53,455 nt of DNA. It comes from Candidatus Zhuqueibacterota bacterium. Its GTDB lineage: Bacteria > Zhuqueibacterota > Zhuqueibacteria > Residuimicrobiales > Krinioviventaceae. The stretch is taken from positions 1-53,455 of the forward strand of contig JAFGSB010000115.1 of the NCBI GenBank assembly GCA_016934825.1, read 5' to 3'. Below, one piece after another: positions 31,927-50,468 of this stretch. The stretch's first letter is position 1. The number at the start of each line of letters is the position of its first letter. The notes beneath the pieces were generated by a model. It saw only the letters and a program-made list of their open reading frames with translations. It did not search any database and was not told the origin of the DNA. The translations under genes were made by a program, and so were the position numbers.

Positions 31927-34900
31927 TCAAGTCCCGATTAAAACAAATGAAGCCCAAAAGTATGGGTGAGCAAAAAAATGTTTTTTATTTTTTGATAATG
32001 AATTTTTCAACATTTCTCTCTGGGTCAATGTTAACGCCTCAGCTTTATTTTTAGTTTTTAAATGCTGATAAAAATTGTTCATAAATAAAGATGTAGACTG
32101 ATCATGAATTTTCCATAAACTGGCAATAACGCAGGGGGAACCGGCGTATAAAAACGCGCTGGAAAGACTGACAAGATCATCACCCTGTGGAAAGCTGGAA
32201 AAAAAGCCGCTTCCGATTGCCGTTTGACAGGCGCTTAAGGTGACAAGAAGCGCCGTCAGGTCCAGATCAAATATCTCGTGAACCTCAAGCTGGCCGTCAT
32301 CGGATTCGGATTTGGCCAGATCAAGACTGGAAAATAAGGGATTGAACCTGTTAAAATGTGCTGTCGTGGCAAAATGTAATAAATCGTATTTTTTTCCACT
32401 CTTCTTGACCAGGGATTCGGTGGCCTGTTCATCCAGTTTATAGTCTGCGATATTTCCGTATATGTTTTTAATTTCCAGTATTTCATCTTTTGACATTGGA
32501 AGAGAGCTGCTATTCGGCGCCAGCAGGAGCAAAGAACGCATAACATCCGATCTTTTTTCTTTGCAGTATTTGAGTATACTGGCAGAAGGCGCATAAGAAA
32601 TGATGTAATCTTGGACCAAATAATGGACATTTTTCAGAACATTTTTTTCCAGTTCATATTCACTGATCAACGCCTGAAAAGGTAAATGATATAAAATTCC
32701 CTGAGGTATAATGATCAATCGTTTCATATGTGCGAGATGCCCTGCTTTTTCAACAGGGGATATAAGTGTTTCGTATAGTTCTTTTAATGGTTTCAACCAG
32801 TAAGTGTTTGTTATTTTTTCCGGATTCATGTTCCGCGTAGCTATCCCTCGGAACAGGATGATCTTGCCGTACAGGTCTTCCCTGGTTACGGGACGCCTTA
32901 ACACTTTAACATTATTTCTTGTCAATATAAAAATGAATAAATCATTTTCCGTTATAAAATACTCCAATAATGCAGAATCATTATCCAGTAATTGTCTGAT
33001 TTGTGGTGCGGCGGCGGGTTCAATATTGACAAGAGCGGCATGTTGGGGATCAGATAATTTTAAATCGAAAAGAGTTTGCCGGTATTCCTCTTGTGTTTTG
33101 TGTAATTCGGAAATAATTATTCTTTTGGCGTTATCGCGAGTTTCCAGGTTTTGAAACCTGTTATTTCCATATATCCTGTCTTTCAGGTTCGTTATTTTAG
33201 TCCGTAATTCATGTTCTTTATTTAAAAGAGACGCGTTTTTGTTGGTTTTATTTATTTTATTATTACCAATAATGTCCAACAGATTTCTTGAACGGGTATG
33301 TTCCACATATTCTAGGGCTTCTTCATATTTTCCCATATGTACGAGTAATGAAATAATGGCTTCGTAGGGTTTATATCGTTTTGACAAAACACCTGATTTT
33401 ATCTCATCCACATAAGACTTGTTACGTATTCGTTCAATTGCATCGATTGCGGCTTTGTAAGAAGTGATTGCTCTGCCGTTTTCGCCCTGTTGTTCCCAGA
33501 GTTTCCCGTTCCCATAATATAATTGCCATTTTAAGTCAAGATCATCAAATTCATCAATAATTGCCAGCCCCTGTTCATAAGCGCCTGAAGCTCTTTGAGT
33601 TTCAAAATGGTCACAGTAAAAATCCCCCAATAATTGTAAAAGCCATGCCTGAAATCTTTTTTCACCAATTTCCTCAGCAATATTCCGGGCCTCAAACCAG
33701 CAATTTATTGTTTTGCTCGAGTCTTGCATTTGATCATAAATATTTCCCAGCCTGATCAGTGTTAAACATTCATTTCTTTTTTCACCGGATTCGGTAAATA
33801 TTTTCAGTGAGTTTGTTGCGTGCTCTTTGGCATTTTTTATATCCCCCTTTGTTAAATATATCTGGCTCATTTCAAGTTGTGCGACAGCAATACCGTTTTT
33901 ATTTCCGATCTGTTTTTGTAATGCCAATGACTTTTCCAGATTTGACAACGCATTGTTATGATCGCCTATATTGGTATAAACTTCCCCGAGAGCTTCCAGC
34001 CAGTAAGCGGCTCCCCGCAAATGGCCGATCTCTTCATGCAGCCCCAGGGCTTTTTGATAATTAATGATTGCTCTGGTGTAGTCACCCCTGTATGAACAGA
34101 CTTTAGCGATTCGCGCATACTGATACGCTTCGCCCTCTTTATAGTCAAGTGTTTTGTGAATCTCCAATGCTTTATTGAAATATAAATGCGCATTGTTGAA
34201 ATCCCCCAGATTCATATATACAATACCGAGATTACCGAAATCGTTTCCCAATCCTTTTTTATCCCCGGTTTCCTGGCGTATTGATATTGTCTCTTCATAT
34301 AAGGAAATGGATTTCGCAAAATCGCCCAGATTCAAATATACATTTGCCATATTTCCAAGATTTTTACCCGAACTGCGAATATTGTTTATGCTTTTGTTGA
34401 TAACGTAAGAGGAATCGTAATGGGACAACGCTTTTCTATATTCACCCATTTCTTCATAAACCAGGCCCGAATTGTTCAGATCGGCCGCCAGCCCCCGCAT
34501 ATCATCAAGTTCTTTTCTGATCTGTATCGCTTTCTTATAATACTTTAACGCCATTGGATAATCACTTTTATCGCTGTATACGGTTGCAATATTACCCAGC
34601 CTGTTGCCGACACGTCGATTATCTCCCAGTTTTTCATGCATCATCAAAGATCTTTTATAATAATCCAGCGCTTTGTCGAACTCGCCAAGATAAAAATAAG
34701 CGGAACCAATACTACCGGTCAGAGCGGCAATTTCATCCGTATCATCAATTTCCTGAGCCAGATTATACGCCCTTTCAAATATTGACAAAGCGTTCAGAAA
34801 ATTTCCACCATAAAATTCAGATTTACCTCTTTGTTTCAAGTGGATGATTTCTGATTTTTTTTCAAGAGCTGTTCCGGTAAATTGCGTGTAACTTTTTACC

Positions 34901-35232
34901 CGGTTATGATAATATTCATCATTAAAAATTTGTGAGTAAATATCTGCAATTGTTTTGGCCATTTGTTTATCAGTGTAGGCTCCGGTAGTATTTTTGCGAG
35001 CACTTTTCACAATCGATGAATCCAGTAACGCTTCTATCAAACGGATTGCTTCAGACCTGTCCGACTGAATTATCCCGGTTAAATTTTCCGTATTATTGTT
35101 CTGTATTGATTGTTTCACCCGGTTGGGGAAATCGGCAGGTGTCTGTGATCCGGCGGGGATTAAAATACTCAAAATAATTAAAAAATAGACTGCCAAAAGG
35201 ATTTTGTTAAAAAAAGCAGTGTTTTTAAACAT
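31927..35232 (-). CDS. exported TPR-CHAT protein, putative caspase-like protease
   Basis: A hydrophobic N-terminal segment (ILLAVYFLIILSILIPAGS) is a signal peptide or anchor. About a dozen kinesin-light-chain-like TPRs of 40 residues follow (roughly 130-640, for example GEFDKALDYYKRSLMMHEKLGD). A coiled linker then leads to a C-terminal CHAT domain (about 780-1101). The catalytic Cys is Cys1002 in VTLSACQTAIGS, and GDDLVSLSSAFLYAGSPCVIASLW is the typical following helix. The usual A-T-H-G/A motif reads A-T-T-A-H-F, so the expected His position is Thr957 and a His lies at 959. The start has AGAGG, and the gene is 9 nt after the anti-sigma gene. CHAT proteins cleave protein targets when their sensor domain is triggered. 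Confidence 0.88.
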   Translation of the reverse strand: MFKNTAFFNKILLAVYFLIILSILIPAGSQTPADFPNRVKQSIQNNNTENLTGIIQSDRSEAIRLIEALLDSSIVKSARKNTTGAYTDKQMAKTIADIYSQIFNDEYYHNRVKSYTQFTGTALEKKSEIIHLKQRGKSEFYGGNFLNALSIFERAYNLAQEIDDTDEIAALTGSIGSAYFYLGEFDKALDYYKRSLMMHEKLGDNRRVGNRLGNIATVYSDKSDYPMALKYYKKAIQIRKELDDMRGLAADLNNSGLVYEEMGEYRKALSHYDSSYVINKSINNIRSSGKNLGNMANVYLNLGDFAKSISLYEETISIRQETGDKKGLGNDFGNLGIVYMNLGDFNNAHLYFNKALEIHKTLDYKEGEAYQYARIAKVCSYRGDYTRAIINYQKALGLHEEIGHLRGAAYWLEALGEVYTNIGDHNNALSNLEKSLALQKQIGNKNGIAVAQLEMSQIYLTKGDIKNAKEHATNSLKIFTESGEKRNECLTLIRLGNIYDQMQDSSKTINCWFEARNIAEEIGEKRFQAWLLQLLGDFYCDHFETQRASGAYEQGLAIIDEFDDLDLKWQLYYGNGKLWEQQGENGRAITSYKAAIDAIERIRNKSYVDEIKSGVLSKRYKPYEAIISLLVHMGKYEEALEYVEHTRSRNLLDIIGNNKINKTNKNASLLNKEHELRTKITNLKDRIYGNNRFQNLETRDNAKRIIISELHKTQEEYRQTLFDLKLSDPQHAALVNIEPAAAPQIRQLLDNDSALLEYFITENDLFIFILTRNNVKVLRRPVTREDLYGKIILFRGIATRNMNPEKITNTYWLKPLKELYETLISPVEKAGHLAHMKRLIIIPQGILYHLPFQALISEYELEKNVLKNVHYLVQDYIISYAPSASILKYCKEKRSDVMRSLLLLAPNSSSLPMSKDEILEIKNIYGNIADYKLDEQATESLVKKSGKKYDLLHFATTAHFNRFNPLFSSLDLAKSESDDGQLEVHEIFDLDLTALLVTLSACQTAIGSGFFSSFPQGDDLVSLSSAFLYAGSPCVIASLWKIHDQSTSLFMNNFYQHLKTKNKAEALTLTQREMLKNSLSKNKKHFFAHPYFWASFVLIGT

Positions 35233-35241
35233 AATATACCT

Positions 35242-36102
35242 CTATTTTTTTTCGTATTTGAAAAAAAACATATCAGAAGTAATCGTAGCGCCGTTTTTTG
35301 TTAAACCTTCAATTTGCCAAAAATAATTAGTTTTGGGAACAAGCTTTATATTTTCCGGTAGTTTTAATTTATTTTTGGATGTTTTCTGGTTCATTATAAT
35401 ATGTCCGTCTGAATCAAGCAGCAGAAAAACATAATTTTTTATATCCGGCGAATCCTGCCATTGAAATTTGAAATTATTATTTCCCACAGTACAATTATTT
35501 TTTGGCGATATTAACTTAATCTCCGGGACTATATATTGTTCCGTTGATTCGCGAGTAACGAACGGATTAAAAGTGCTGATATCCGATTGAACCAGAACCA
35601 TACATAAAACAATTATTATTACCGCAAGACCGGCCCACCTGTAACCCGGTTGCGGTTTTGTCAACCTGTCAAATAATGATTTTACACCGGTAACAAAATC
35701 CTTAGCATGTGAAGAAATGAAATCATAAATATGTTCCCTGATATCATTTTTACCAATTAATCTTTCGCTTTTCAATTCGTGCAGATATTCTTCAATGATT
35801 ATTAATTTGGACAAGCATAATTCACATTGACTGAGATGGGTAAAATATTGTTTTTTCCTTTTGCCGCTGAAATGGCCTGTTAGATATGCAATGTGATCAT
35901 TTTCATCGTAGCATTGTTTTGTTGGAGTTGAGTCCCCAATTTGCTGTGTGGAAAGTATTGAGCCATAAAACCTTTTGAACAATAAGAGTTTGTTCTTGCA
36001 TTGTTGACATTCCTGCAAATGTTTTTGAATTTCTTTGTTTTCTTTGTCAATCAATGTTCTATTACAATAATCAAATATCTGTTTTATATTTAGACATTTC
36101 AT
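35242..36102 (-). CDS. anti-sigma factor with two zinc-finger motifs
   Basis: Two ZAS-like HxxxCxxC motifs are present: H28-x3-C32-x2-C35 (HLQECQQC) and H89-x3-C93-x2-C96 (HLSQCELC). A single transmembrane helix (WAGLAVIIIVLCMVLVQS, about 156-173) precedes a periplasmic domain of about 110 residues that resembles a fibronectin-like sandwich (YIVPEIKLISPKNN, FKFQWQDSPDIKNYVFLLLD). This is the topology of membrane anti-sigma factors. I chose the internal ATG at 36102, preceded by GGAG at 9 nt, over an ATG at 36117. It lies 114 nt after the sigma factor and 9 nt before the CHAT gene. The periplasmic part could sense envelope signals or be cleaved. Confidence 0.8.
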   Translation of the reverse strand: MKCLNIKQIFDYCNRTLIDKENKEIQKHLQECQQCKNKLLLFKRFYGSILSTQQIGDSTPTKQCYDENDHIAYLTGHFSGKRKKQYFTHLSQCELCLSKLIIIEEYLHELKSERLIGKNDIREHIYDFISSHAKDFVTGVKSLFDRLTKPQPGYRWAGLAVIIIVLCMVLVQSDISTFNPFVTRESTEQYIVPEIKLISPKNNCTVGNNNFKFQWQDSPDIKNYVFLLLDSDGHIIMNQKTSKNKLKLPENIKLVPKTNYFWQIEGLTKNGATITSDMFFFKYEKK

Positions 36103-36216
36103 AATATTTATCTCCATTATTGTTATATTATATAATAACGGACACGCAATCCTCTTTTTGCATTTTTTTTGGTTTTAAATTGGATAATAAAGACCGGGTA
36201 GTCGGCTTTAAGAGAA

Positions 36217-37068
36217 TTATTTCAGAATATTTTCGATATCGGAAGAATCAATGCTATAAGATTCAAGTTCTCTTTTTATTTTGGCCAGCAGTTTCTTTAA
36301 CAGCCGATGTACTCTCCAGATATTTTTGATTTTTAATATTCTGGCGATTTGTTCCAGTGTCAGTCCCCGGTAAAAATAAAGATTAAGCAGTAAATTTTCA
36401 TTTACGGTCAGTCCGGCAATAATTTTTTTATAGATATTTTTTATATCATCCGAAATGATCAGACTGTCAGGTTGATCGGCCTGCAGTTTTTGTTCTTTAC
36501 CGGACAAGGTTCCCTGCGAAGCAGGTTTTACATCTTTATCATTTATTAAGAATATTTGAGGGTTATTATGTATTAAAGGGCTTTTTGTCTTTTTTACCAG
36601 GGTTGTAATTTTATCTATATGCGAGACTATTTCTTCCGGGGTGATAGTATGTTCATAATTTGTTGTTATGATTTCGTAGATAGTTTTATCGGAGTAATGA
36701 AACCAGAATTTGTATTTATAAATCAATTGGTCAAGCAGGGGTAGCTCTTTAATGTTTCCGCTTACCCTTTTTCTGCCATGTTGTTTTCTCAACCAGTCGA
36801 TACAGCAGTTTCTGATAGTGACAGCAAGCCACGGTTCAAATCTATATTGCCGTTTACTTTTATAATATGTGATTATTCTGGAATAATTGTCCCTTTTTAA
36901 TTTTTCCAGGATATAGGTATACATATCCATCATGGCGTCATAATCAAAAGCGTATTTTTTGATGATCGCCATGAAGAGATCATTATAACATTCAAGAAAA
37001 TGTTTCCAGCCTTTTTCGGGATTTTGTTTTAAACATTTCTCCCAATTTTGTTTAGCTTTTTGAAACAA
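36217..37068 (-). CDS. ECF-like RNA polymerase sigma factor
   Basis: Region 2 is seen at about residues 20-100 (ECYNDLFMAIIKKYAFDY, then EPWLAVTIRNCCIDWLRKQHGRKR, the sigma2.3-2.4 -10 contact helix). Region 4 is at about 225-270: LNLYFYRGLTLEQIARILKI, then WRVHRLLKKLLAKIKREL, a helix-turn-helix for -35 recognition. Between them lies about 110 residues, much longer than in typical ECF factors of 160-200 aa. The start is a TTG with AGAGGGG 4 nt upstream; the next ATG would remove part of region 2. It heads the sigma/anti-sigma/CHAT locus and probably drives it in an autoregulated way. Confidence 0.82.
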   Translation of the reverse strand: MFQKAKQNWEKCLKQNPEKGWKHFLECYNDLFMAIIKKYAFDYDAMMDMYTYILEKLKRDNYSRIITYYKSKRQYRFEPWLAVTIRNCCIDWLRKQHGRKRVSGNIKELPLLDQLIYKYKFWFHYSDKTIYEIITTNYEHTITPEEIVSHIDKITTLVKKTKSPLIHNNPQIFLINDKDVKPASQGTLSGKEQKLQADQPDSLIISDDIKNIYKKIIAGLTVNENLLLNLYFYRGLTLEQIARILKIKNIWRVHRLLKKLLAKIKRELESYSIDSSDIENILK

Positions 37069-37565: not shown

Positions 37566-39980
37566 TTACTGTTTCTTTGGCTTTTTCGGCGCTTCCAAAA
37601 CCTGGCCGGCCTGGTGCAGGGTGAGGGAGGTCACGTTACCGTTTTCGTCTTTGTTAAAAACAACCTGCGCGTTGACAACCTTGAAGAAAAATTCGGTTTC
37701 GGAACTGGGAAACATTTCGAATTTGGGTTGTCCGGTCGCCTGGTTAAAGATTTTGTCTCCTTCTTTGGTAATTGTGAGGATAAAATCGGGCATTAGTTCG
37801 TATTCGCCGACATAGGCGTCGTAAACGGCCGGATCGACCAGCACGGCGGTTTTTCCCACATATCTGGACGCCCTGATCTCCCGACCACCCTGGTGGTGAA
37901 TGACGTTATTCACCTGTCCGTCCTCATCCCGGACAAATGTAATCTGCGCGTCCACAACTTTCCAGAAAAACTCGGTTTCGGAGCGTGGGAATATCTGTAA
38001 TTTCCCCTGGCCGGTAAATTGCGCGAACAGTTTACCATCCTGAGTGGTGATGTCCATAATACCCTGGCCGTAATCGTAACGGCCGACATAATCCTTAAAG
38101 ACGGACGGATCTACAGAGGTATCCTCCGCCAGCGTTTTTTGCTGTTCAAGCTGTTTCCAGAAATAGATTTCGGCAATCTGTCGGGCGGCGTCCTCGGTGC
38201 CGAAACCTGGCGGCAGCGGCACACTATTACACAGGACCACAACGGTGGCGTTAATATCCGGGAGACGGGTCAGATAGGAACTGAAACCATGCAGGCCGCC
38301 GCCATGTGCGATTTCCCGTAAGCCGCGAAAATCCACGAACGCCCAGCCGTAACCGTATTTGCCCATATCCTGCGGTTCCGTGCCGTCATTCAGTTTCACC
38401 GGCGTTAATGCCGCCTGCAGGGAGGATTCCTGCAATACTTTGCCGTTAAAAATGCTCTCGTTCCATTTGTACAGGTCGCCGACTGTGGAGTACAGGTTAC
38501 CCGCGCCCCCGGCCCAGGACATGTCCCAGTTCAGCGATCTTTTGTAGGCATCGTTTTCATAAGAATAGCCGATTGCTTCATGCGGCAGTTCTATGTCTTT
38601 ATAGTGTACGCCGGTGTTTGTCATGCCGAGCGGTCCGAAAAAGTTTTGCTGCAGAAAATCATTATAGGACATACCGGAAATCTGTTCAATCAGATAACCC
38701 AAAATAAAATAACCGGAATTGTTGTACAACCATTTTTCACCGGGATCAAAGTCGTATTTGTCTTTCTTAATCAATTCAATCAATTCATCCGGTTGTACGG
38801 TTTTTTCAACTTTTTTAATAAAATCGGGTGTTGACGTATAACTGTGAATCCCCGATGTGTGGGTGAGCAGATGGTGGATGGTCACCTCGTCGCCGCGCGG
38901 GAAATCCGGAATATATTTGGAGAGTTTGTCCTGAACGCTGATCTTGCCCTGTTCCTGGAGTTTCAGGATCGCGGCGGCGGTAAACTGTTTGGTTATGGAA
39001 CCGATGCGAAACTGCGTCTCGGGAGTGACCGGAATTTTCTCCTCCGTATTTTGATTGCCGTAGCCTTTTTCAAATACGATCTTTCCATCTTTTGCCACAA
39101 GCACCGCGGCGCCAGGGGTTTTATCATTAAATACGTTGGTGAAAACAAGATCTGTCAGTGTTTCATTATCGGGAAAGGGAATATATGTATCCGCGCCATG
39201 ATCCTCAAGTATTTGCAGAATTTCCGTACGCCCCTTGATTTGCGCGAATTGATAGGGGGTCAGCCCGTTTTTGCTTTTAAGGTTGACATTTGCGCCATAT
39301 TCGATCAGCATATTCACATCGTCGATTTGTCCCATTGCCGCAGCGTACATCAGTTTTTCAGATTTTGCGGTATCGCCCATAATTCGGCAGGCAAAGCCCC
39401 AGCTATATTGCATGTTCTGAATTTTGAGTAACAGCCGGTTTTTCCCTTTTTTCAGGGTAACGGGGACTATATCATCGTCAATATTCACCGCCCGGCCTAT
39501 CCAGTTTTCGTGAACCAGTTCGCCGTTGAGCCAAACTTTGAGACCATCGTCACTGCCGATGCCGAACAAAATTTTCGTGGTTTCCGGTATGTTTATTTCG
39601 GCATAGGCATAAACGACAACATATTCTTTTTCGCCGTACCTTTTTACCAGATCGACAATATTCTCTTTCGAGTTGAGAAGAGTCCAGTTCGAAACGAGGT
39701 TTTTCCCCGGTTCGGAAATATCAATCGACGCCTCTCCGCCATACGCCGACAACAGATCTTTATCGAATCTTTTTTTCTGGGCTTCATCGTCCCTTTCTTC
39801 CAATGTATCTTTAAAAACGGGGATCGGTCCAGCAACCATCCACGAGGTCATAAATTCATCCGGCTGAGGATTATTATAAATAGCCGGATTATCAGGACCG
39901 GCAAAGATCGTAATATTCAGCAGCAGCGTTAAACAGAGAACCATCAGGCGGAGTATCCGATAATTGTTTGATGTAAACAT
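37566..39980 (-). CDS. secreted class C beta-lactamase-fold hydrolase with ankyrin repeats
   Basis: Starting at the ATG preceded by AGGAG (39980; a longer frame opens at 40058), the protein has a signal peptide (LRLMVLCLTLLLNITIFA). A jelly-roll-like domain (about 40-200, with ILFGIGSDDGLKVWLNGELV, as in PA14/GH2-type modules) and two ankyrin repeats (about 206-268) follow. Next is a serine beta-lactamase/DD-peptidase domain: S328-x-x-K331 (GSITK), Y419-N-N421 (YNN), and H559-G-G (HGGGLHG). Finally there are two tandem DUF3471-like domains (YVGRYDYGQG and YVGEYELMPD). The catalytic triad motifs are intact. Likely a periplasmic or surface esterase/peptidase. No transporter or regulator is adjacent. 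Confidence 0.85.
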   Translation of the reverse strand: MFTSNNYRILRLMVLCLTLLLNITIFAGPDNPAIYNNPQPDEFMTSWMVAGPIPVFKDTLEERDDEAQKKRFDKDLLSAYGGEASIDISEPGKNLVSNWTLLNSKENIVDLVKRYGEKEYVVVYAYAEINIPETTKILFGIGSDDGLKVWLNGELVHENWIGRAVNIDDDIVPVTLKKGKNRLLLKIQNMQYSWGFACRIMGDTAKSEKLMYAAAMGQIDDVNMLIEYGANVNLKSKNGLTPYQFAQIKGRTEILQILEDHGADTYIPFPDNETLTDLVFTNVFNDKTPGAAVLVAKDGKIVFEKGYGNQNTEEKIPVTPETQFRIGSITKQFTAAAILKLQEQGKISVQDKLSKYIPDFPRGDEVTIHHLLTHTSGIHSYTSTPDFIKKVEKTVQPDELIELIKKDKYDFDPGEKWLYNNSGYFILGYLIEQISGMSYNDFLQQNFFGPLGMTNTGVHYKDIELPHEAIGYSYENDAYKRSLNWDMSWAGGAGNLYSTVGDLYKWNESIFNGKVLQESSLQAALTPVKLNDGTEPQDMGKYGYGWAFVDFRGLREIAHGGGLHGFSSYLTRLPDINATVVVLCNSVPLPPGFGTEDAARQIAEIYFWKQLEQQKTLAEDTSVDPSVFKDYVGRYDYGQGIMDITTQDGKLFAQFTGQGKLQIFPRSETEFFWKVVDAQITFVRDEDGQVNNVIHHQGGREIRASRYVGKTAVLVDPAVYDAYVGEYELMPDFILTITKEGDKIFNQATGQPKFEMFPSSETEFFFKVVNAQVVFNKDENGNVTSLTLHQAGQVLEAPKKPKKQ

Positions 39981-40133
39981 AGAGACTCCTGATTTAAATA
40001 TAATGTATATAATGGATTTAAAAGTATTTACGATAAAGACCGGAATAGGTTTCCCCAATTGTAAAAATTTTAATATTTAATACGGAACAGTCCCATTCAA
40101 ATTAGGAGTTAGGGACGAAAAAAAGCCGGGGAT

Positions 40134-41594
40134 TTAAATATTTATTATCATATTAAATCTGGTGCCGTTATCGTTATCCAGGATTAATTGACCGTTAAGT
40201 TGTTTTTCAACCAGTAAAGTGACCAGCCGCAGGCCCAGGGAATCTGTATTTCGAATATTTATATCCGAGGGCAGGCCGATACCGTTATCCTGAACAATGA
40301 GGGAGAGTTTATTAACAGCAGGTAAATTACAGGTAATATTTATTTTATTTTGTCCGTTCCTGTGTTTTACAAAGGCGTGTTTAAGTGAATTGGAAACCAG
40401 TTCGTTTAAAATCAAACCGCATGGAATAGCGATATCAATATTCAAATTAACTTTAGTAATGTCCAGTTCGAGTTGAATGGAATTTTTTTGCAAGCTGTAG
40501 GTTTGTATTAAACCGGCGACCAGGTCTTTGATATAGTCCTGTAAATTAATTTTCGCCAGATCAGCTGATTGATAGAGTTTTTCGTGCACAAGCGCCATAG
40601 AACGTATTCTGTTTCGGCTTTCATTAAAAATGTTCGCCATGTTATCGTCTTTAATGTTTTTGGTTTGCAAATAGAGGAGACTTTGAATGATTTGCATATT
40701 GTTTTTTACCCGGTGATGGATTTCCTTTAACAGGACCTCTTTTTCCCGTAATGAAGCGGTTATTTTTTTTTCGATGACCTTTTTTTCATTGATTTCCCTC
40801 CGCAGCTTTCTGGTGCGGTCAGAAACTCTTTTTTCCAGGCTATAATTCATCTGTTCCAGTTCATTTTGAGTGAGCAGCAGTTCATCAACCATTTTATTAA
40901 AGGATTTGGCCATTTGATCCACTTCGTAACTGGAAGATATTTTTACTCTTTTTGTTAAATCTCCGTTGGCGATTTGTACAAATATTTGTCCCATCAGGTT
41001 AAGCGGTTTGGTAATCAGAATACTGAAGATAAATACCGTGACCAGGCCGAGGGAAAAAATCGACAAACTCATCAGTGCGATGGTTTTTTTACTTTCCAGG
41101 ATTTCCGCCCTGATCTGCTCCAATGATAAACCGATTAATATTTTACCGATTTTACGGGAATTTGCAAAAACCGGTTTTGATACATAATAGATCAATCCAT
41201 CTTTGGAAATGGAATTGTAATTATTAATCAACAGTGATTCTGGTTCAAGAATGTTTAGCGCCGAATTTTTGTTATAGTGAGCGACGATATTCTCATATTC
41301 ATCAACCACAATAAAAAAAACAAGGTCTTTATTTTGTTTGGAACTATTGATTACTTCATTTATGTTTTCAATATCATGAAAAAAAAGGGCGGGACTTATG
41401 CTGTAAGCGGTCATTTCGGCTATAGCACGGGATTTTTCCTCATATACTTTAATTTCCTCTTTTTCGAGTTTTTGCGGGAAATAAAAATATATAAAAAGAG
41501 AAATGACCGCAATTAAAAAAGATACCACCAGGGCGAGTTTTGCGCAAATTGTATTGTACCATTTTTCAGGCAATAGGGAGAAAAATAATTTCAT
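40134..41594 (-). CDS. CHASE8-like/HAMP/HisKA_2 sensor histidine kinase
   Basis: Two transmembrane helices (about 17-40 and 171-194) enclose a 130-residue sensor. Its opening (AIAEMTAYSISPALFFHDIENINEV) and FFIVVDEYENIVAHY strand resemble the CHASE8 domain of YfiN-type proteins. HAMP follows (KPLNLMGQIFVQIANGDLTKRV), then a coiled coil, then HisKA_2 with His294 in EIHHRVKNN, and a HATPase with [14 protein letters not shown] and VQDNGIGLP. The gene is 13 nt after a YfiR-like gene, with AAGGCG as ribosome-binding site. No response regulator is in the operon; the nearest REC domain is fused at 45476-46561. Confidence 0.85.
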   Translation of the reverse strand: MKLFFSLLPEKWYNTICAKLALVVSFLIAVISLFIYFYFPQKLEKEEIKVYEEKSRAIAEMTAYSISPALFFHDIENINEVINSSKQNKDLVFFIVVDEYENIVAHYNKNSALNILEPESLLINNYNSISKDGLIYYVSKPVFANSRKIGKILIGLSLEQIRAEILESKKTIALMSLSIFSLGLVTVFIFSILITKPLNLMGQIFVQIANGDLTKRVKISSSYEVDQMAKSFNKMVDELLLTQNELEQMNYSLEKRVSDRTRKLRREINEKKVIEKKITASLREKEVLLKEIHHRVKNNMQIIQSLLYLQTKNIKDDNMANIFNESRNRIRSMALVHEKLYQSADLAKINLQDYIKDLVAGLIQTYSLQKNSIQLELDITKVNLNIDIAIPCGLILNELVSNSLKHAFVKHRNGQNKINITCNLPAVNKLSLIVQDNGIGLPSDINIRNTDSLGLRLVTLLVEKQLNGQLILDNDNGTRFNMIINI

Positions 41595-41607
41595 AATAAA
41601 ATGCGCC

Positions 41608-42192
41608 TTAATAATAGATTTGGGCCAACTTTAAGAGTTGAGAGCTGAAATCAATATTTTCCAACTTTGCAGCGTCAAGATTTATTAATATTTGCGGCTT
41701 GTTACCTTTTATACCCACTCCGACGGTTAAACCGAATTTAATATATTCCTCAACTCCCGACATTGTAATAATATGATACTTGCGACTTTTATTTTTGATT
41801 TCTTCAATTCCTTTCGCTCTCAGGGGAGTAACGTAAAAAACATCAATTTTTTCTGACAGCAGGGCGGTTTCAAGATCAGTCGTATCGATATTTATGGTTG
41901 TAAATTTAACATCCAGACCCTCTAATTTAGTTAACCCGGATTTATTTAATTCATCAACAAAATTATTTTTTGCGTTTAAAGAAGTATTAAATTTTCTTTG
42001 ATAAATAATTCCGATAACAATTTCATCGCCGACCTTATTTTTAAAATTTCGGTCAAATGTTAATATTTTTAATAAAATAGGTAAATGGATTCTTATGGGT
42101 ACTGAAATATCCTGCCCTAAAACCGGGAATATCAATGTAAAAAGTAAGATAATGGTAACATTCTTTGTGTATTTTAATGACAGTGGGTTCAT
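41608..42192 (-). CDS. YfiR-family (DUF4154) periplasmic protein
   Basis: A signal peptide (IILLFTLIFPVLG) is followed by the DUF4154/YfiR fold: LLKILTFDRNFKNKVGDEIVIGIIY near the start, DLETALLSEKIDVFYVTPL in the middle, and a diagnostic ending KPQILINLDAAKLENIDFSS with LLKLAQIYY. In Pseudomonas, YfiR is a periplasmic repressor of the membrane cyclase YfiN and is relieved by the outer membrane protein YfiB. Here the gene lies 4 nt after a TonB receptor and 13 nt before a CHASE8-like kinase. I infer that it relays state between the receptor and that kinase. Confidence 0.85.
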   Translation of the reverse strand: MNPLSLKYTKNVTIILLFTLIFPVLGQDISVPIRIHLPILLKILTFDRNFKNKVGDEIVIGIIYQRKFNTSLNAKNNFVDELNKSGLTKLEGLDVKFTTINIDTTDLETALLSEKIDVFYVTPLRAKGIEEIKNKSRKYHIITMSGVEEYIKFGLTVGVGIKGNKPQILINLDAAKLENIDFSSQLLKLAQIYY

Positions 42193-42196
42193 AAAA

Positions 42197-44164
42197 TTAA
42201 AATTTAATTCCAGATGTAAAAGTAAAATTTCTTCCGTTTTGCGTTATCATGTCGCTGTAATGTTCATAACCTCCCGGCAGTGCATACTTTTTATCAAAGA
42301 TATTTCTAACCTGCAAGGATAATTTTAAACAGTTAAATAAACGAGGTGTTGAGAAATGAATATTGGTGAGTAAATAAGGTTCTGATTTTGTCCGGTAAAC
42401 AGTAATACGTTCGTATTCGTATATAAATTCAAGACCTGTATTAAGGAATTTTGCCAAAGAGTTTGTGAAACCACATTTGATAATATAAATTGGCGAGTTG
42501 GTTAATCGATCATCATTAGAATTATTTCTGGCATCCTGATATGATGCGTTGAGATAACCCCGAAAACCCGAATCTAATCGCAGATTTAACTCCATTTCAA
42601 TACCCTGCGTCCTGACCTTGCTCAAGTTTTTATACAAAAAAAGAGAGTCCGAGGGATCGATCGTCCAGTCAATTAAATCTTTCATACTGTATTCGTAAAA
42701 AGACAAAATGCCGAATATTCTTTTTGTCAGGCGCTTCTCGAAAATGAATTCAGAGGTTTTGATTTTTTCAGGTTTTAAAAGAGGATTAATTTTATGATAT
42801 TCTTCTTCCTGATAGTACTTTTCATAAATATTGGGAGTGCGGAACGCCTGGCCGTATAATAGTTTAAATGTACAATCTTTAGAGGGAGTATAAATAATCC
42901 CGAATCTTGGCGAAACGGATGAACCGCTCAAATTATTACTATCATTTCTGATTCCAAGAGTAAAAGATAAATTATCTTTAAACTGATATTCGTTTTGCGC
43001 GTATAGAGAAAATAAATGATAAGGAAAGTTGCCCTTAAAAAAGGTCACATTCTCATCCCAAAAAGTGTAATCGGCCTTTTGATGGTCTTGATATTCCATC
43101 CCGGCAATCAATCTGAAATTCGTCAACAAATCCCATCTGAATTGAATTTCCTGACCTGTCCAATGTGCATTCACTTTATCAAAAGCCATAACATCGTATG
43201 GATAAGTTTCCTCAAAATCATATCCGTCATAGTATGTCCTGAACATTAAATATTTATCCATCCCAATATTACGGGAATATTTTAGCTCAATAAATTTTCT
43301 TGCATCACGGCTTTTTGTTTTGGGATCATTGAAATTGGTTTCCCATGATCCGGTCGGAATACCCTTTTCCCTGTCGGTGTACATTCCCTGTACAGTAAAG
43401 TTATTGAATGAGATTTTGCTCATAACGCCAGAAAATTTATCCCAGTCAAGATTTTGCGCAATGCCATAATTATTATCCGGATAATTATATTCCTTGAAAT
43501 ACAAATCCTGGCCCTTAATATCGCCCCATAAACCGGAAATACTGAACTTGAAACCATTGCCAATTTTCCTGCCGAAGGAAAAATTTGTTTGTTTTTTTCC
43601 ATAACTCCCGATTCCGGCAGAAAAGTTCATGCCGTCGATATAATCTCCGTCTTTTGTAATGATATTAATTACCGCGAGCATGGCACCGGTACCATAAATA
43701 ACCGAGCCCGGTCCCCTGACAACTTCAATATGCTCAATGGAATTGATGTCAAGACCGAGTTCCGTACCGATAAGAGCCCCTGTAAATACATTGTCGTTTA
43801 AAGTATGGCCATTAAGCAAAAGCAGTATCCTGTTGTTATAATCTGTAGGCCGACCAAATCCCCTTACTCCAACATAGCTATAGTTTCTGTCATTGGTAAT
43901 ATAAAAGCTGCGGATGCTCATAATGATTTCATCTAATGTCTGGTAACCATAGCGTTCAATATCGTCGGAGGTTATAATTGTAACCGCTGCCGGAGCTTCA
44001 TTGGTTTTTTGTTCATATTTTGAAGCTGTGCTGACAGGAATATTTAATAAGGAATCCAGTGAAATAAATTTTATATCCCGAACTAAATCCGCCGCCAGTC
44101 CGGCTTGCGAAAAAATAATGATAAAAATAAAAATAGTTGAACCGGGTAATTTGTAGATTTTCAT
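42197..44164 (-). CDS. TonB-dependent receptor
   Basis: A 655-aa outer membrane receptor. The signal peptide ends SQAGLAA. The plug domain is clear: EAPAAVTIITSDDIERYGY, YVGVRGFGRPTDYNNRILLLLNG, and IEHIEVVRGPGSVIYGTGAMLAVINI are canonical. The remaining 480 residues are amphipathic strands of the 22-strand barrel with the closing SGIKF aromatic C-terminus. The substrate is unknown; no cobalamin or heme riboswitch is seen upstream. GAGG precedes the start. It leads an operon with YfiR-like and CHASE8-like kinase genes, which suggests that ligand binding is sensed as well as imported. Confidence 0.92.
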   Translation of the reverse strand: MKIYKLPGSTIFIFIIIFSQAGLAADLVRDIKFISLDSLLNIPVSTASKYEQKTNEAPAAVTIITSDDIERYGYQTLDEIIMSIRSFYITNDRNYSYVGVRGFGRPTDYNNRILLLLNGHTLNDNVFTGALIGTELGLDINSIEHIEVVRGPGSVIYGTGAMLAVINIITKDGDYIDGMNFSAGIGSYGKKQTNFSFGRKIGNGFKFSISGLWGDIKGQDLYFKEYNYPDNNYGIAQNLDWDKFSGVMSKISFNNFTVQGMYTDREKGIPTGSWETNFNDPKTKSRDARKFIELKYSRNIGMDKYLMFRTYYDGYDFEETYPYDVMAFDKVNAHWTGQEIQFRWDLLTNFRLIAGMEYQDHQKADYTFWDENVTFFKGNFPYHLFSLYAQNEYQFKDNLSFTLGIRNDSNNLSGSSVSPRFGIIYTPSKDCTFKLLYGQAFRTPNIYEKYYQEEEYHKINPLLKPEKIKTSEFIFEKRLTKRIFGILSFYEYSMKDLIDWTIDPSDSLFLYKNLSKVRTQGIEMELNLRLDSGFRGYLNASYQDARNNSNDDRLTNSPIYIIKCGFTNSLAKFLNTGLEFIYEYERITVYRTKSEPYLLTNIHFSTPRLFNCLKLSLQVRNIFDKKYALPGGYEHYSDMITQNGRNFTFTSGIKF

Positions 44165-44893
44165 TAATTTCCTCTACATGATATTTTTTTACATAAACAA
44201 TGTAATATATCCATTATACTACCTGTTTTGGTACCTGGAAACACTCCCCCTGATTTGAATCAAGGTTTCAAAAAAAATTAGTGAGATATTGGTAAAAATT
44301 TCAATGATCTAAAAAAGCAGGAAACAATTTCATACACGAATACTTTATAATAAAGTAAGGGGTAACATGTATGGGTTTGACAATATTGTTATGTTTATTT
44401 GCAAAATGTATACCAAATAAGCAAAAGATCATGAACTATTAATTTATTACTTTATAAACAATTCAATATATTGATACATGTTAAGTAAGTAATGCAAGAT
44501 ATAGCCATTGTGTTATATATAGGAATTGTTTATCATGTAAATAAAATATTACGTTAAATTTACTGAAATAAGTAAATTTTAACTCGTTTTATACATCCCA
44601 ATGGTAAAAATATAAACCAATAGGTACATTTATGTCACATATTATTGGGAACGACTCCTGTCTATATGAAAATTTGTAGAATCCGGAACATAACCAACTT
44701 GCTATCGAAAATTTATTGAGGGGGCAAATTATCTATTTGATGTAAGGATAGAAATGTACCCAAGCTTGTACCACCACTGAAAGTTTCTTTCAGATTATTT
44801 ATCATAAAATGACAGACCGATTGCGTTCAGTTCGCAGAAAGATCAGAAGGCCGAAATCAAAAATAGTAAAAGAAGGAAAAAACCGGACAGGCT
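44165..44893. other. 730-base AT-rich intergenic region
   Basis: No gene is supported. One imperfectly placed hairpin AAATTTACT / AGTAAATTT (44556-44579) is seen. The region should hold the promoter of the TonB receptor operon on the minus strand. No B12-box, Fur-box or other recognisable element was found. Confidence 0.4.
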
Positions 44894-45271
44894 TTATTTG
44901 TTTTCTTTTTCAATCCGTAATTTATCTCCATCATTTACAGAGCGAAAAACAGCCGTGTCGCCATGAATAATACCGATGATATTCACAGCGCTCGCGGCCC
45001 TGGGTTTATCGTCAATGCTTGCGGGAGTGGGACCGAAAAAGATACAAAACGCGTTGCAGGGCGGCCAGTAACCTATTTCGCCGATCTTCAACTCTTCGCT
45101 CGCGTTCGGTTCGAGGTAGGCCTTGACTATGGTACTGCAATAGATCTCATCGCCCCAGGTGTTCACGTTAGCTGCTATCGGTAAGGCGTCATAGATTTGA
45201 TTCGCAGTTGGTGTGTCTCTTAATTCGGCGGTAAGAGATATTTTGTTTATGAGGATTTTGATTTTTTTCAT
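44894..45271 (-). CDS. cyclophilin-like fold protein (TM1367 type)
   Basis: A 125-aa protein of the DUF3830/Cyclophil_like family. Typical features are an N-terminal strand IKILINKISLTAELRDTPTA, then IYDALPIAANVNTWGDEIY, and the family signature FFGPTPASIDDKPRAASAVNIIG followed by a final strand VNDGDKLRIE. The fold resembles cyclophilin, but prolyl isomerase activity is not established for the family, whose role is unknown. It is monocistronic, about 200 nt downstream of the REC-HisKA_2 kinase gene's end on the far side and 620 nt from the TonB operon. Confidence 0.85.
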   Translation of the reverse strand: MKKIKILINKISLTAELRDTPTANQIYDALPIAANVNTWGDEIYCSTIVKAYLEPNASEELKIGEIGYWPPCNAFCIFFGPTPASIDDKPRAASAVNIIGIIHGDTAVFRSVNDGDKLRIEKENK

Positions 45272-45475: not shown

Positions 45476-46561
45476 TTATTTTTTCAAGGGAATATTTATT
45501 TTAACAAAGGTTCCTTCTTTATTCTCCACATTAAGCTTGCCTGTCAATTGACCTTCGGCTAATATTGTTACAAGGCGCAATCCCAGACTGTTTGATTCCT
45601 TATAATCAAATCCGGCCGGAAATCCGATCCCGTTGTCTTTGACAATTAACTCAATATTTTTACCCAGCGTTCTCATGGATACTTCAATTTGGCCATTTTT
45701 TTTGTGAGATACCGGAAACCCGTGTTTAAGAGAATTAGAAACCAGTTCATTTACAATGAGTCCGCATGGAATGGCCTTGTTAATATCAAGTGATATATTT
45801 TCTATATTCATTTTTAACTGAATTTTTTCGGAATTCATACGATAAGTATGAAAAAGGTCCTTAATGAGGTTTTCTATATATTTTCTAAAGTCAATTTTTG
45901 CCAGATCGGGGGCCTGATACAGTCTTTCATGAATTAAAGCCATTGAATTAACCCGATGATAACTTTCCTGTAAAATATCTTTGATTTTTGTATTATTTGT
46001 CTGATTTGACTGAAGGTTCAACAAGCTGGAAATAATCATAAAATTGTTTTTGACACGGTGATGTATTTCCTTCAAGAGGACCTCTTTTTCTCTAACCAAA
46101 TTTTTTAGTTTATCTTCTGCCTTTTTTCTGTTGGTGAGCTCTTTTTTTAATTTATCATTAAGTCTTTTTAATTCCATCATGTCTTTGTGACGCGCTATGG
46201 CAATAATAACCGCCCGTTCGATCTCGATTTTTTTAGGGGGTTTGGTAATATATGCTCCGACCCCCATATAACTGGCTTTTTCAATCAGATCCAGAGACTC
46301 ATGCGCCGTTAGAATTACCACCGGGGTCGGACAGTTTTTCTGGATTTTTTGAGCGGCCTTGAGTCCGTCCATTTTGGGCATCTGTATATCCATCAGAACG
46401 ACATCAGGTTGAAGCAGGGCAGTCAATTCGACTGCTTTTTTCCCGTTCGTAGCCAAATCGATATGTTCATATCCGCTTTTTTTTAATTCACGTATAATTT
46501 CTTCGCAGACCAGAAAATCGTCTTCCGCAACCAGCACGTGAATTTTTTTAGTACTTTTCAT
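45476..46561 (-). CDS. REC-HisKA_2 hybrid histidine kinase
   Basis: An N-terminal receiver domain has acidic residues E13-D14-D15, phospho-acceptor Asp58 ([13 protein letters not shown]) and a conserved ITKPP lysine. A coiled-coil linker leads to HisKA_2 ([20 protein letters not shown]) and a HATPase ([31 protein letters not shown]). It has no transmembrane segment. The kinase half is closely similar to the kinase at 40134-41594, so the two are paralogues. The start overlaps the end of the seven-PAS kinase by 14 nt, implying they work as a pair: phosphate from the PAS kinase may reach this receiver. Confidence 0.88.
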
Positions 46562-49500
46562 TTAATAAATCCTCGTGTTGGAATTCAGTATCGTTAATAA
46601 AATGTATTTTAACCACTGCGCCGTTATCATTAAATAGTTCAAGTTTGCCGTTCAGACTATGATAAATGATTCCGTGGATCAATTCAAAACCGATATTGGA
46701 TTCATTTTTATAATCTTTTAAAATTTTGTCCGGGAAACCGGGACCGTCATCATGAAAACAGAGGATGGTATATTTTCTGCCTTCTTTGAAATAGACCCGA
46801 ATTTTTGCTGTTTCCCTGTCATGAAGAGCGTATTTCAGGGAATTGGTTGCCAATTCATTCAATACAATTGTCAGATAATGTGCCACATTGCTGTTTATTT
46901 TAATCAGCGACTCTTCAACATCAAGATTTATATTTTTATAATGCGGTAAACCCTGTACAGTATTTGAAATAACTTTTTCACACAGTTGGCTTAATTCGAC
47001 CGGTTGCCAATTTATGGAAGCGAGAATACTGTGTACGGTCAACAGCCCGTTAACCCGATTTTCCAGATTTTGTAATACAGGCAGATGATTGGCGTAACCT
47101 TTGCTTGCCGCACGGTCTTCCTCTTTATGAAGCATACTGATAATAGTAGCCAGGTTATTCTTGACCCTGTGATTAACCTCCCGCAACAGGACCTGCTGCG
47201 TTTCCGCGTAATTACGTAATTTGTCCTCGGTGAGTTTTCTTTCCGTAATGTCCTCAAAGGTAGAGTAGACCAGGAAAGGCTTTTTTGTTTCTCCGAATTG
47301 GGGTGTCGCGTTGATATTAATCCAGCGGTATGCATTATCTTTCGGATTAAAAATTCCCATAACAACATTTTTTATTTCTTTGCCCGTTTTTAGTGCGACC
47401 ATGGCCGGATGTGTATCGCCGGGAAACTCGGAACCATCTTCGTGGATGGCCTCCCAATTGGCGGTATTCGATGTAAGTCCGTACAATTGTTCCCGGGAGA
47501 GTCCCAGAATAGTTTCTGCTGCCGGGTTGGATGAAATGATTTCACCTTTATCGTTTTGATAGATAACGCCCTGTTTCATTGTTTCAAAAAGCGTCCGGTA
47601 TTTTTTTTCACTTTCGCGAAGCGCTTTTTCTGTTCTTTTCCTTTCCGATATATCCCGGCCAAATGCCCAATTATATTTTTTCCCCATGAATGCCACAAAA
47701 TTTACAGTAATTTCGACCGGGAGTAATTCACCGTTTTTCTTTTTATGAACAGTCTCTATTGTAAATGACTTTCTTTTTACAATTTCTTTCCAGTGAGGTC
47801 TCCATCTCCTGAGATTAAAACTTGGATCAATGTCAAATACCGTCATGCCCAATAATTCTTCTTTTGTATACCCTAAAAACCGGCATGCTTCTTCATTTAC
47901 ATAAATGAAATGAGCGTCCTGCCCCAATAAATAGGCTGCGTCGCCGGCATGGTCGATGGAGAATTGCATCAATCTTAATGTTTTTTCCGCCTGTATGCGG
48001 TCGGTAATATCTCGAATAATAGCTAAAATCAAATTTTGATTTTCCAGTACAAATGGTGTCAGACTGACTTCCGCCGTGAATTCGCCATTATCCGGCCTGG
48101 TGTAAACCCATTCATAAACCTGTGAGTTACCTGATTGCACCGCTTTTATATGCGCAAGCGCTTTTTCTTTTGATGATTTTCCATCGGGTTGAACGGGGGG
48201 AGACAGGTTATAAGGTTTATTACCGATGATTTGATCTTTACGACATTTAAAAATTTCCAGGATTTTGGGATTACAATCTAAAAATTCATCATTCTTCATG
48301 ATGATGATCCCGTCATGGGCATTTTCAAAAAATAAGCGATATTTATGTTCACTTTCACGTAAAGCTTTTTCCACAAATTTTCGTTCAGTGATATCAATTA
48401 CGGAAACAAATACTTTTTCCCATGTTTTTTCATATCCCGGCGCGATGATGAGATGAACCTCTGACCAGATAATTTCGCCTTTTAAATTATATTGTACTGT
48501 TTCATCAATACATTTTGTTTTCCCTCTGGTAAATGCCACCAGTTCTTTACGAAACAGAACAAATGCTTCTTCAGAAAAGAGATTTTCCAGATTTGTAAAC
48601 AATTCATTTTTGTCTTGAGATTTATAAATATTCATTGTTGCCTGGTTGACATTCAAAACAAGGATTTCCTGTAGGCATAATTTTAAAATTTCCGGTTGTT
48701 CTTCGAGATATTCATCAAGATCGGTTACTCCGTTAGCGATCAGGTTGTCGAAAATTTTTTTAACTTTTGAGAAATCAACTTCCCACAAAGAGAGAGGCGA
48801 ATTTTCGAATAAGGATCGGTAACGGGCTTCGTTTTCTTTTAGGGCTTCAACTACTTTTTTATGTTCTGTAATATCTTCATAACAACCAAGAATTCCAAAA
48901 ATATCTCCGTTTTGATCCTTCAGCGGAATTTTACTTGTCTTGAACCAGCGTATATTGCCATCCGGCATGATTCTGGGGTCCTCAAAGATCATTTTGGCCT
49001 TGCCGGTTTCGATCACCTGCCGGTCTATTTCATTGTATTTTTTCACGTCTGAACGCCAGGCCATGTGTATATCTTTTTTACCGATAATTTCTTCTGGGGA
49101 AATAAATCCGGCATCCCTGGCAAATAATAAATTGGATCCGATATACACAGAATTCAGGTCTTTCCAAAAAACTCTGACCGGAATTGTATCCAAAATACTG
49201 CGCAGCATTTTTTGCGAAGCCTGCAGCGCTTCCTGGGTTTGTTTTTCTTCCGTTACATCAAGGACCGTATAAGTAACACCGGAAGCCAGATCATTTTTAT
49301 CGATAGGTGTGGAGTTGAGTAAAACATCTATAATCTTCCCGTCTTTTCGTAACCATCGGGTCATAATTCTGCCGGTCCCGAATTTTGAAATTTGCTCATA
49401 TTTTATTTTTCCTACCCTTTCATACTCCTCCTGGTCCGGGTAGAGCATTCTGGAATTTTTATTTATCAATTCTTCACTGGTATAACCGGTCATCTCACAT

Positions 49501-50468
49501 ACCCGGTTGTTTACATTTTTAATTACCCTGTTAACAACCACACCAATACCTGTTGGCGCCACCCGAATAATACTCGATAATCTGGCCTTGCTGTCGCTGA
49601 ATGCCTTTTGTACTTTTTTGAAATCGGATATATCCCGTAAAGTTACGATCCCGGTTTCGGTTTGATTGCCGGGGTTCGGTATTTTTGAATAATTAATTTC
49701 ATAGAATTTCTGCTCACCTTTATGTTCCCAACAATATTCTGTTCTCAGGTTTGATTTTTTTTGTTTTTGCAGTTCGTTTAATGGCGTCGTAAGCCAGGGA
49801 ATGACTGTAAAAATCAGTTTGCCGGTCAGGGCAGGGGATAAAACCTTCTCTAATCCGGCCGGCGGTTCTTTTTTAATCATTTTAACAGCCGCGGTATTGA
49901 GGTTTAATATCTCATTTTTTTCATTGATCACGATAACCGGTTCGTTGTAACTATTAAAAATTTGTCGATAATGATTATTGTCAGCATGTGCGGAAATATT
50001 CACTGCCTGATTTTCGACAGGGGATTCCTCTTTATCCAGCCTTATCCATTCTTCACATAATGCGATTTCTATTCTGTCAAAACTCCGTTCGAATGTTTCT
50101 AACAAACGTGCAGTTTTTTCAGGTGAGGAAAAATCCGTTATCAGTTCAGAACATGCCAGTCTGACGTATTTGAACAGAACCAGCAATTGATCCAGTGTTA
50201 TTCCGACCGGTTTATATCTTGCAGCTTCCTGAATGCCAAAAATTTCGAATTGATTATTATCCGTATTTTTTTCAGGCCTGAAAACCGTGAGGCTTTTAGT
50301 ATTTTTCAGCCCCACAGAGAGGGAGATTATCAAACCATTTATCGACCGGCGCCAGCTTTCTTCAATGGAGGGATTTTTTTGGAAAAAATCCCGTTTTTTC
50401 ACAAGTAACAGGGTTGATTTTACCAGCCGGTCCTCATTTTCCTGAAAAAGATTTATTAATTCATTCAT
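46548..50468 (-). CDS. soluble seven-PAS histidine kinase
   Basis: A 1306-aa cytoplasmic kinase without transmembrane helices. Residues about 1-150 look like an RsbRD/globin-like sensor helix bundle ([19 protein letters not shown]). About seven PAS/PAC modules follow (near 165, 295, 420, 545, 695, 825 and 945), each closing with a PAC-type phrase such as [55 protein letters not shown] or TFEDITERK. The end has HisKA_2 ([20 protein letters not shown]) and a HATPase ([24 protein letters not shown]). Such a string of PAS domains suits redox, light or ligand sensing. It is co-expressed with the REC-HisKA_2 hybrid. Confidence 0.88.

Follow-up and report, generated by a model that had tools for sequence, protein, structure and literature searches.

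Can an outer-membrane transporter pass a signal to an inner-membrane kinase by way of a periplasmic protein? The question is raised by a three-gene locus of Candidatus Zhuqueibacterota bacterium (GenBank assembly GCA_016934825.1), located in contig JAFGSB010000115.1, of which positions 1 to 53,455 (53,455 nucleotides, hereafter the window) were analysed. The genes lie on the minus strand and are transcribed in the order TonB-dependent receptor, YfiR-like periplasmic protein and sensor histidine kinase. An earlier note, made from the sequence alone, had interpreted this trio as a kinase version of the YfiBNR circuit of Pseudomonas; the open reading frames (ORFs) do lie exactly where it had placed them, with intergenic gaps of 4 and 13 nt according to the ORF list. 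The reading that we favour, with a probability of about 0.5, is a trans-envelope relay leading from the outer-membrane receptor through a YfiR-like messenger to the inner-membrane kinase. It draws on gene order, domain content, recurrence, co-variation, independence of the output domain and the dependence of one sensor phenylalanine on a YfiR partner, all of which are properties of the sequences.

All Pfam assignments for the three proteins exceed the curated cut-offs. The receptor (655 aa, 42197..44164, minus strand, as are all features of the trio) is encoded by the first gene and consists of a Plug domain (residues 55-162, 43679..44002; 62.7 bits) and a TonB barrel (114.6 bits); Pfam searches at E values up to 1 matched only these two, with no FecA-type N-terminal signalling domain. 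The YfiR-like protein (194 aa, 41608..42192) matches DUF4154 (PF13689) with 45.9 bits against a cut-off of 24.9. The match, limited to residues 88-190 (profile positions 42-142; 41623..41931), holds the C-terminal segment that aligns with the aromatic pocket of YfiR, and the translated protein contains no cysteine. The kinase (486 aa, 40134..41594) has the architecture CHASE8-HAMP-HisKA_2-HATPase_c. Its periplasmic domain (residues 53-154, 41133..41438) had been described previously as CHASE8-like, and the profile search agrees (37.1 bits, cut-off 27); the AlphaFold2 model of this domain (predicted local distance difference test, pLDDT, 93.5) has structural matches that include PAS/Cache sensors such as CitA. 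It is followed by a HAMP domain (residues 193-239, 40878..41018; 44 bits), by the HisKA_2 dimerisation and phosphoacceptor domain (residues 291-366, 40497..40724; 100 bits), in whose translation the motif EIHHRVKNN can be read, and by the catalytic HATPase_c domain (residues 394-482, 40149..40415; 34 bits). The genome (5.39 Mb in 179 contigs) holds one DUF4154 gene, one CHASE8 gene and 24 TonB-barrel genes, and the sole representatives of the first two families adjoin each other, with one of the TonB-barrel genes at their side.

Absence of the trio from other genomes would have counted against the earlier note; it recurs in each of three samples. DUF4154 is present in 20 of 60 genomes of relatives, where 28 loci, the window's own included, were examined and 25 were evaluable, the remainder being too close to a contig end. 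Of these 25, 15 have a TonB receptor directly upstream of the YfiR gene and 3 have one just downstream; a CHASE8/HAMP sensor comes directly after YfiR in 17, and 13 (window included) show the complete receptor-YfiR-sensor order. The second sample consisted of 200 genomes drawn evenly across the Proteobacteria, 50 of which contain DUF4154, with 72 matches (2 of them below the family cut-off) at 68 evaluable loci, the others again lying too near a contig end. Here the receptor is directly upstream in 36 loci and downstream on the same strand within 4.5 kb in 14 more, CHASE8 directly follows YfiR in 53, and the full order occurs in 29. A YfiB-like gene with an OmpA motif was found in 3 of the 68; thus, in the proteobacterial sample, the neighbour from the outer membrane is usually the receptor (50 of 68) rather than YfiB. 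Receptor and OmpA calls in these two samples rest on a custom profile and a motif, so that some will have been missed.

The third sample started from an alignment of the receptor only, with which one genome per species (84,980 species) was scanned; the best 80 of 151 relatives gave 79 loci, labelled Aminicenantes, Zixibacteria, Latescibacterota, Bacteroidota, Ignavibacteriae, Gemmatimonadota, Nitrospirae, Acidobacteria, Deltaproteobacteria and others (L069 and L070 are two copies that share a contig, and a few loci are relatives already counted). YfiR and then a CHASE8/HAMP sensor follow the receptor in 52 of the 79; in 2 YfiR comes after further receptors, in 5 an ABC_sub_bind protein and a sensor follow, and 4 end too soon. 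The 53 sensors made up of these 52 and the window's contain CHASE8 in 51 cases, HATPase_c in 41 and GGDEF in 6, and one (L098) has an HD domain.

Several loci depart from the common arrangement. Contig L068, labelled Poribacteria, has several consecutive receptor genes of the same clade, four of them on the gene map, followed by one YfiR and one CHASE8 sensor. In L058 a receptor of the same clade precedes a gene for a lone receiver domain and another that is kinase-like, without YfiR. A tandem pair of DUF4154 domains within one gene is found before a CHASE8 kinase or sensor in L014/L024 and L015/L023 (L052, L053). At L254-L257, divergent YfiR-like proteins directly precede hybrid kinases without a Pfam CHASE8 match, perhaps a second kind of YfiR-sensor pairing; the YfiR-CHASE8 rule is therefore not universal. 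Finally, a natural fusion of 864 aa from a proteobacterium (L253:3042-5636) joins DUF4154 (53.8 bits) to HisKA, HATPase_c and receiver domains through a long coiled region and a membrane span, the latter two being read off the sequence.

Receptor, YfiR and sensor domain vary together, and the output domain varies independently of them. Across 49 loci, distances correlate at 0.83 between receptor and YfiR, 0.85 between YfiR and sensor domain and 0.77 between receptor and sensor domain, values as high being reached in none of 999 permutations. The catalytic region of 38 kinases correlates with YfiR at r 0.15 and, within one polypeptide, with the sensor domain at 0.26, low values that may partly reflect poor alignment of diverse kinases. 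The alignments comprise 52 of 60 sensors (A4), 42 of 65 YfiR proteins (A5) and 46 of 60 sequences (A6), each with that of the window added; L066, L068, L070, L088, L090, L107, L114 and the five ABC_sub_bind loci were left out of the distance correlations.

A single residue of the sensor follows the identity of the periplasmic partner. Genetic work in P. aeruginosa placed the YfiR-binding site of YfiN in the motif AAVVF (PMC3375315). This motif, as present in the YfiBNR-type locus L233, corresponds in the alignment to PALFF at residues 68-72 of the window kinase, and YfiN's phenylalanine for YfiR contact is retained there as F72 (codon 41379..41381), which upholds the relation to the YfiBNR circuit that had been suggested. 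Of 106 sensors encoded after YfiR, 105 have Phe at this position, the exception being L076 (Leu); of 18 encoded after an ABC_sub_bind protein none has it (Thr in 10, Leu in 6, Val in 2). D74 and G150, by contrast, are largely conserved in sensors of either kind. With grouping at 50% identity, Phe is found in 80 of the 81 groups of YfiR type, which retain two spurious rows, versus 0 of 8 ABC-type groups. For the residue count L066, L070, L090, L107 and L114 were dropped before alignment and the spurious rows L255 and L257 after it, and the sensor profiles, built from YfiR-linked sensors, may favour Phe slightly. Within these sequences, F72 depends on a YfiR partner. In P. aeruginosa, a YfiR pocket formed by L166, I169, V176, P178 and L181 accommodates F57 of YfiB, L-Trp or vitamin B6 (PMC4887326); its counterparts in the window protein, counted by hand on the alignments, are L172, A175, F182, S184 and L187, mostly hydrophobic.

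The relay that we favour could work as follows. The TonB-dependent receptor would be the outer-membrane input, and the YfiR-like protein would bind the CHASE8 domain through an exposed F72 seated in its hydrophobic pocket, thereby holding the kinase in one signalling state, which by analogy with YfiN alone would be the repressed one. Once the receptor engages TonB or its presumed ligand, perhaps a nutrient as the earlier note had proposed, YfiR would be drawn away or F72 displaced; the HisKA_2 kinase would then switch state and feed a phosphorelay, presumably by way of a response regulator. A number of observations weigh against this. Among the 79 receptor-scan loci, 9 carry YfiR but lack a CHASE8 sensor within 1.3 kb, and a further 7 lack both; in 13 of the 68 proteobacterial loci no receptor was found near YfiR and CHASE8; and a same-genus genome holds a receptor-YfiR pair without kinase (L033). 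None of the neighbouring genes examined was seen to encode a DNA-binding response regulator, and the alignment caveat given above applies to the apparent independence of the output. The window proteins also score below the cut-offs of the NCBIfam families for an association of the same three protein kinds (TOL_0243/TOL_0244): the YfiR-like protein reaches 28.8 of 125 bits, the receptor 147 of 645 with NF053590, its best match, and the kinase 43.4 of 194.

The structure of the YfiR-like protein opens another way of reading the locus. Its AlphaFold2 model (pLDDT 94.7) matches 3lkv with Z 16.8 (root-mean-square deviation, rmsd, 5.1; 169 residues aligned), a one-lobed substrate-binding protein (SBP) of R. 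marinus with Z 15.8 (2.9; 146), 3lft with Z 15.6 (4.2; 156) and crystal structures of YfiR with Z up to 15.3 (2.5; 141), other binding proteins being found near Z 10. It is thus as close to ABC_sub_bind proteins as to YfiR itself, with the next class well apart from both; 3lft and 3lkv differ from it in being two-lobed and ligand-binding. Both were also named from a Dali search in the YfiR crystal paper (PMC4655355), and the paper that describes the one-lobed R. marinus protein reports such genes near a chemotaxis-receptor gene (PMC10805632). Moreover, ABC_sub_bind members (96-137 bits) occupy the YfiR slot after the receptor in five loci (L097, L099, L118, L121 and L127), before sensors without a CHASE8 match that carry as outputs MCP, kinase-receiver, GGDEF-EAL (in two loci) and kinase-receiver-Hpt; 3lft and 3lkv are among the best matches of the L127 protein in the PDB. 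A search of 299 Proteobacteria for ABC-type proteins gave 50 genomes with matches; 30 loci were taken, with 13 alignable sensors, 7 of which have a visible receptor. At the level of sequence, phmmer with the window protein against the PDB gave a single, non-significant match, and as a single query of the genome contigs the protein found no relatives, YfiR being reached at 2.6e-6 with profile A2. The comparison of YfiR and ABC_sub_bind profiles was not significant (probability 2.9%, E 0.015), and their kinship therefore rests on the fold, the operon slot and the published Dali result, not on sequence. Operon slot and common fold suggest that YfiR may have originated among ABC_sub_bind proteins.

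On this basis one may imagine that a small molecule, perhaps an aromatic one, is taken up by the receptor, that the one-lobed YfiR binds it like an SBP and that CHASE8 reads the loaded or empty state, the receptor never touching YfiR. The fold, the exchange for a two-lobed protein in 5 of 79 loci and the reported binding of L-Trp and vitamin B6 in the YfiR pocket all speak for such a scheme. We nevertheless consider it rather unlikely: binding of L-Trp and B6 was reported as weak, in the ten-millimolar range (PMC4887326), the two families are not significantly related by profile, and the mode of reading must differ, because the sensors of two-lobed partners do not have F72. A still less probable account, in our view distinctly so, makes the receptor a regulated target or cargo, while YfiR and the kinase sense something else, such as redox state or envelope stress. 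The loci with receptor and YfiR lacking a sensor (9 of 79) and those with YfiR and CHASE8 lacking a receptor (13 of 68) would fit it, and operon membership alone gives no direction; but receptor distances track those of YfiR and of the sensor across many phyla, the receptor is retained while outputs change, and the window protein has no cysteine, so that the redox mode known from P. aeruginosa is unavailable as such. That the genes are separate functions on a shared promoter, or mere neighbours, is hardly credible. Short gaps are common in bacteria; yet the genome's only DUF4154 and CHASE8 genes are adjacent and the arrangement returns in many phyla, and a chance neighbourhood is contradicted by this recurrence.

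Going back to the relay, its likeness to YfiBNR of P. aeruginosa, and likewise to HmsCDE and AwsXRO, lies in a periplasmic protein of YfiR fold adjoining an inner-membrane CHASE8/PAS-HAMP protein. The two systems differ in output, a GGDEF diguanylate cyclase in YfiBNR but HisKA_2 and HATPase_c in the window, and in the outer-membrane partner, an OmpA/Pal-like lipoprotein (YfiB) there and a TonB receptor here. They differ also in that P. aeruginosa YfiR has conserved disulfide cysteines, none of which has a counterpart in the window, and redox control of the P. aeruginosa kind cannot therefore apply as such. As a kinase version of YfiBNR, the trio thus holds up for YfiR, CHASE8-HAMP and the kinase output, and fails for YfiB, whose place is taken by the receptor; no OmpA motif occurs in the neighbourhood scanned. 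NCBIfam describes the same three protein kinds (NF053591, NF053590 and NF053592, the last named 'sensor histidine kinase, YfiR-like protein-associated'), a neighbourhood definition that we take from the family names; the gene set is present side by side in the window, and a canonical locus, L086, exceeds the cut-offs (YfiR-like protein 151 against 125 bits, kinase 210 against 194). Carriers available in culture include Thalassolituus oleivorans, the source of the TOL_ tags, and Geomesophilobacter sediminis (L134). TonB receptors that signal across the envelope are familiar from the FecA-FecR-FecI system. That gene set (named in PMC9239204) works with an anti-sigma/sigma pair, instead of which the trio has a YfiR-like protein and a kinase, its receptor being limited to Plug and barrel.

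Part of this picture is not new. YfiR-YfiN cores with histidine kinase, GGDEF-EAL, HPT or MCP outputs, mostly without YfiB, were described in 2012 (Malone et al., 2012; PMC3375315), so a kinase output on this core is already published, and the association of the trio is already known to the curators of NCBIfam. What seems to be new, relative to the papers searched, is the receptor as prevalent partner, the exchange of YfiR for an SBP and the F72 rule, all three drawn from sequence comparison. The word 'TonB' is absent from the main text of the 2012 paper, and no paper on a TonB receptor, YfiR and kinase together was found in the literature searched, which covers few subscription journals. The same authors noted that most divergent YfiR-YfiN systems lack YfiB, raising the question of their input (PMC3375315), for which the present survey offers the TonB-dependent receptor as a candidate. 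If so, a transporter of the outer membrane would reach a kinase or cyclic di-GMP enzyme in the cytoplasm by a route that bypasses FecR and sigma factors, and the single residue F72 would predict which sensors obey YfiR. We further propose, more tentatively, a general plug-in relay composed of a TonB receptor, a periplasmic adaptor descended from ABC_sub_bind proteins, a CHASE8/Cache-HAMP effector and any output; the adaptor would be YfiR, one-lobed and gripping the sensor phenylalanine in its former ligand pocket, or a two-lobed protein where the phenylalanine is lacking, and YfiBNR would be a minority offshoot.

The genes around the trio provide two candidate associates. A possible further operon member, 75 nt past the kinase (37566..40058, minus strand), encodes a serine hydrolase of the beta-lactamase family with ankyrin repeats (Pfam); in the same-genus genome, too, the gene immediately after the trio encodes such a hydrolase, 58% identical to it. 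On the other side, a gene for a receiver-HisKA_2-HATPase protein (45476..46561, minus strand; Pfam) overlaps by 14 nt the gene for a 1306-aa multi-PAS HWE/HisKA_2 kinase, the two covering 45476-50468. Relatives of both (60% and 42% identical, respectively) lie near the trio in the same-genus genome, and from this conserved vicinity we would guess that the receiver-HisKA_2 protein is a relay partner. Promoter and terminator scans of 39900-45000 yielded no more than shuffled sequences did, and no transcription unit can therefore be drawn from them; the window is also without an Rfam match to an RNA element or riboswitch. Upstream of the receptor, positions 44894-45271 encode a small cyclophilin-like protein (PF04126, 132.6 bits). 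Farther away on the minus strand, at 31927-37068, stand in a row genes for a sigma-70-like protein, a weakly matching zinc-finger protein (anti-sigma-like) and a TPR-CHAT protein (CHAT 205.6 bits).

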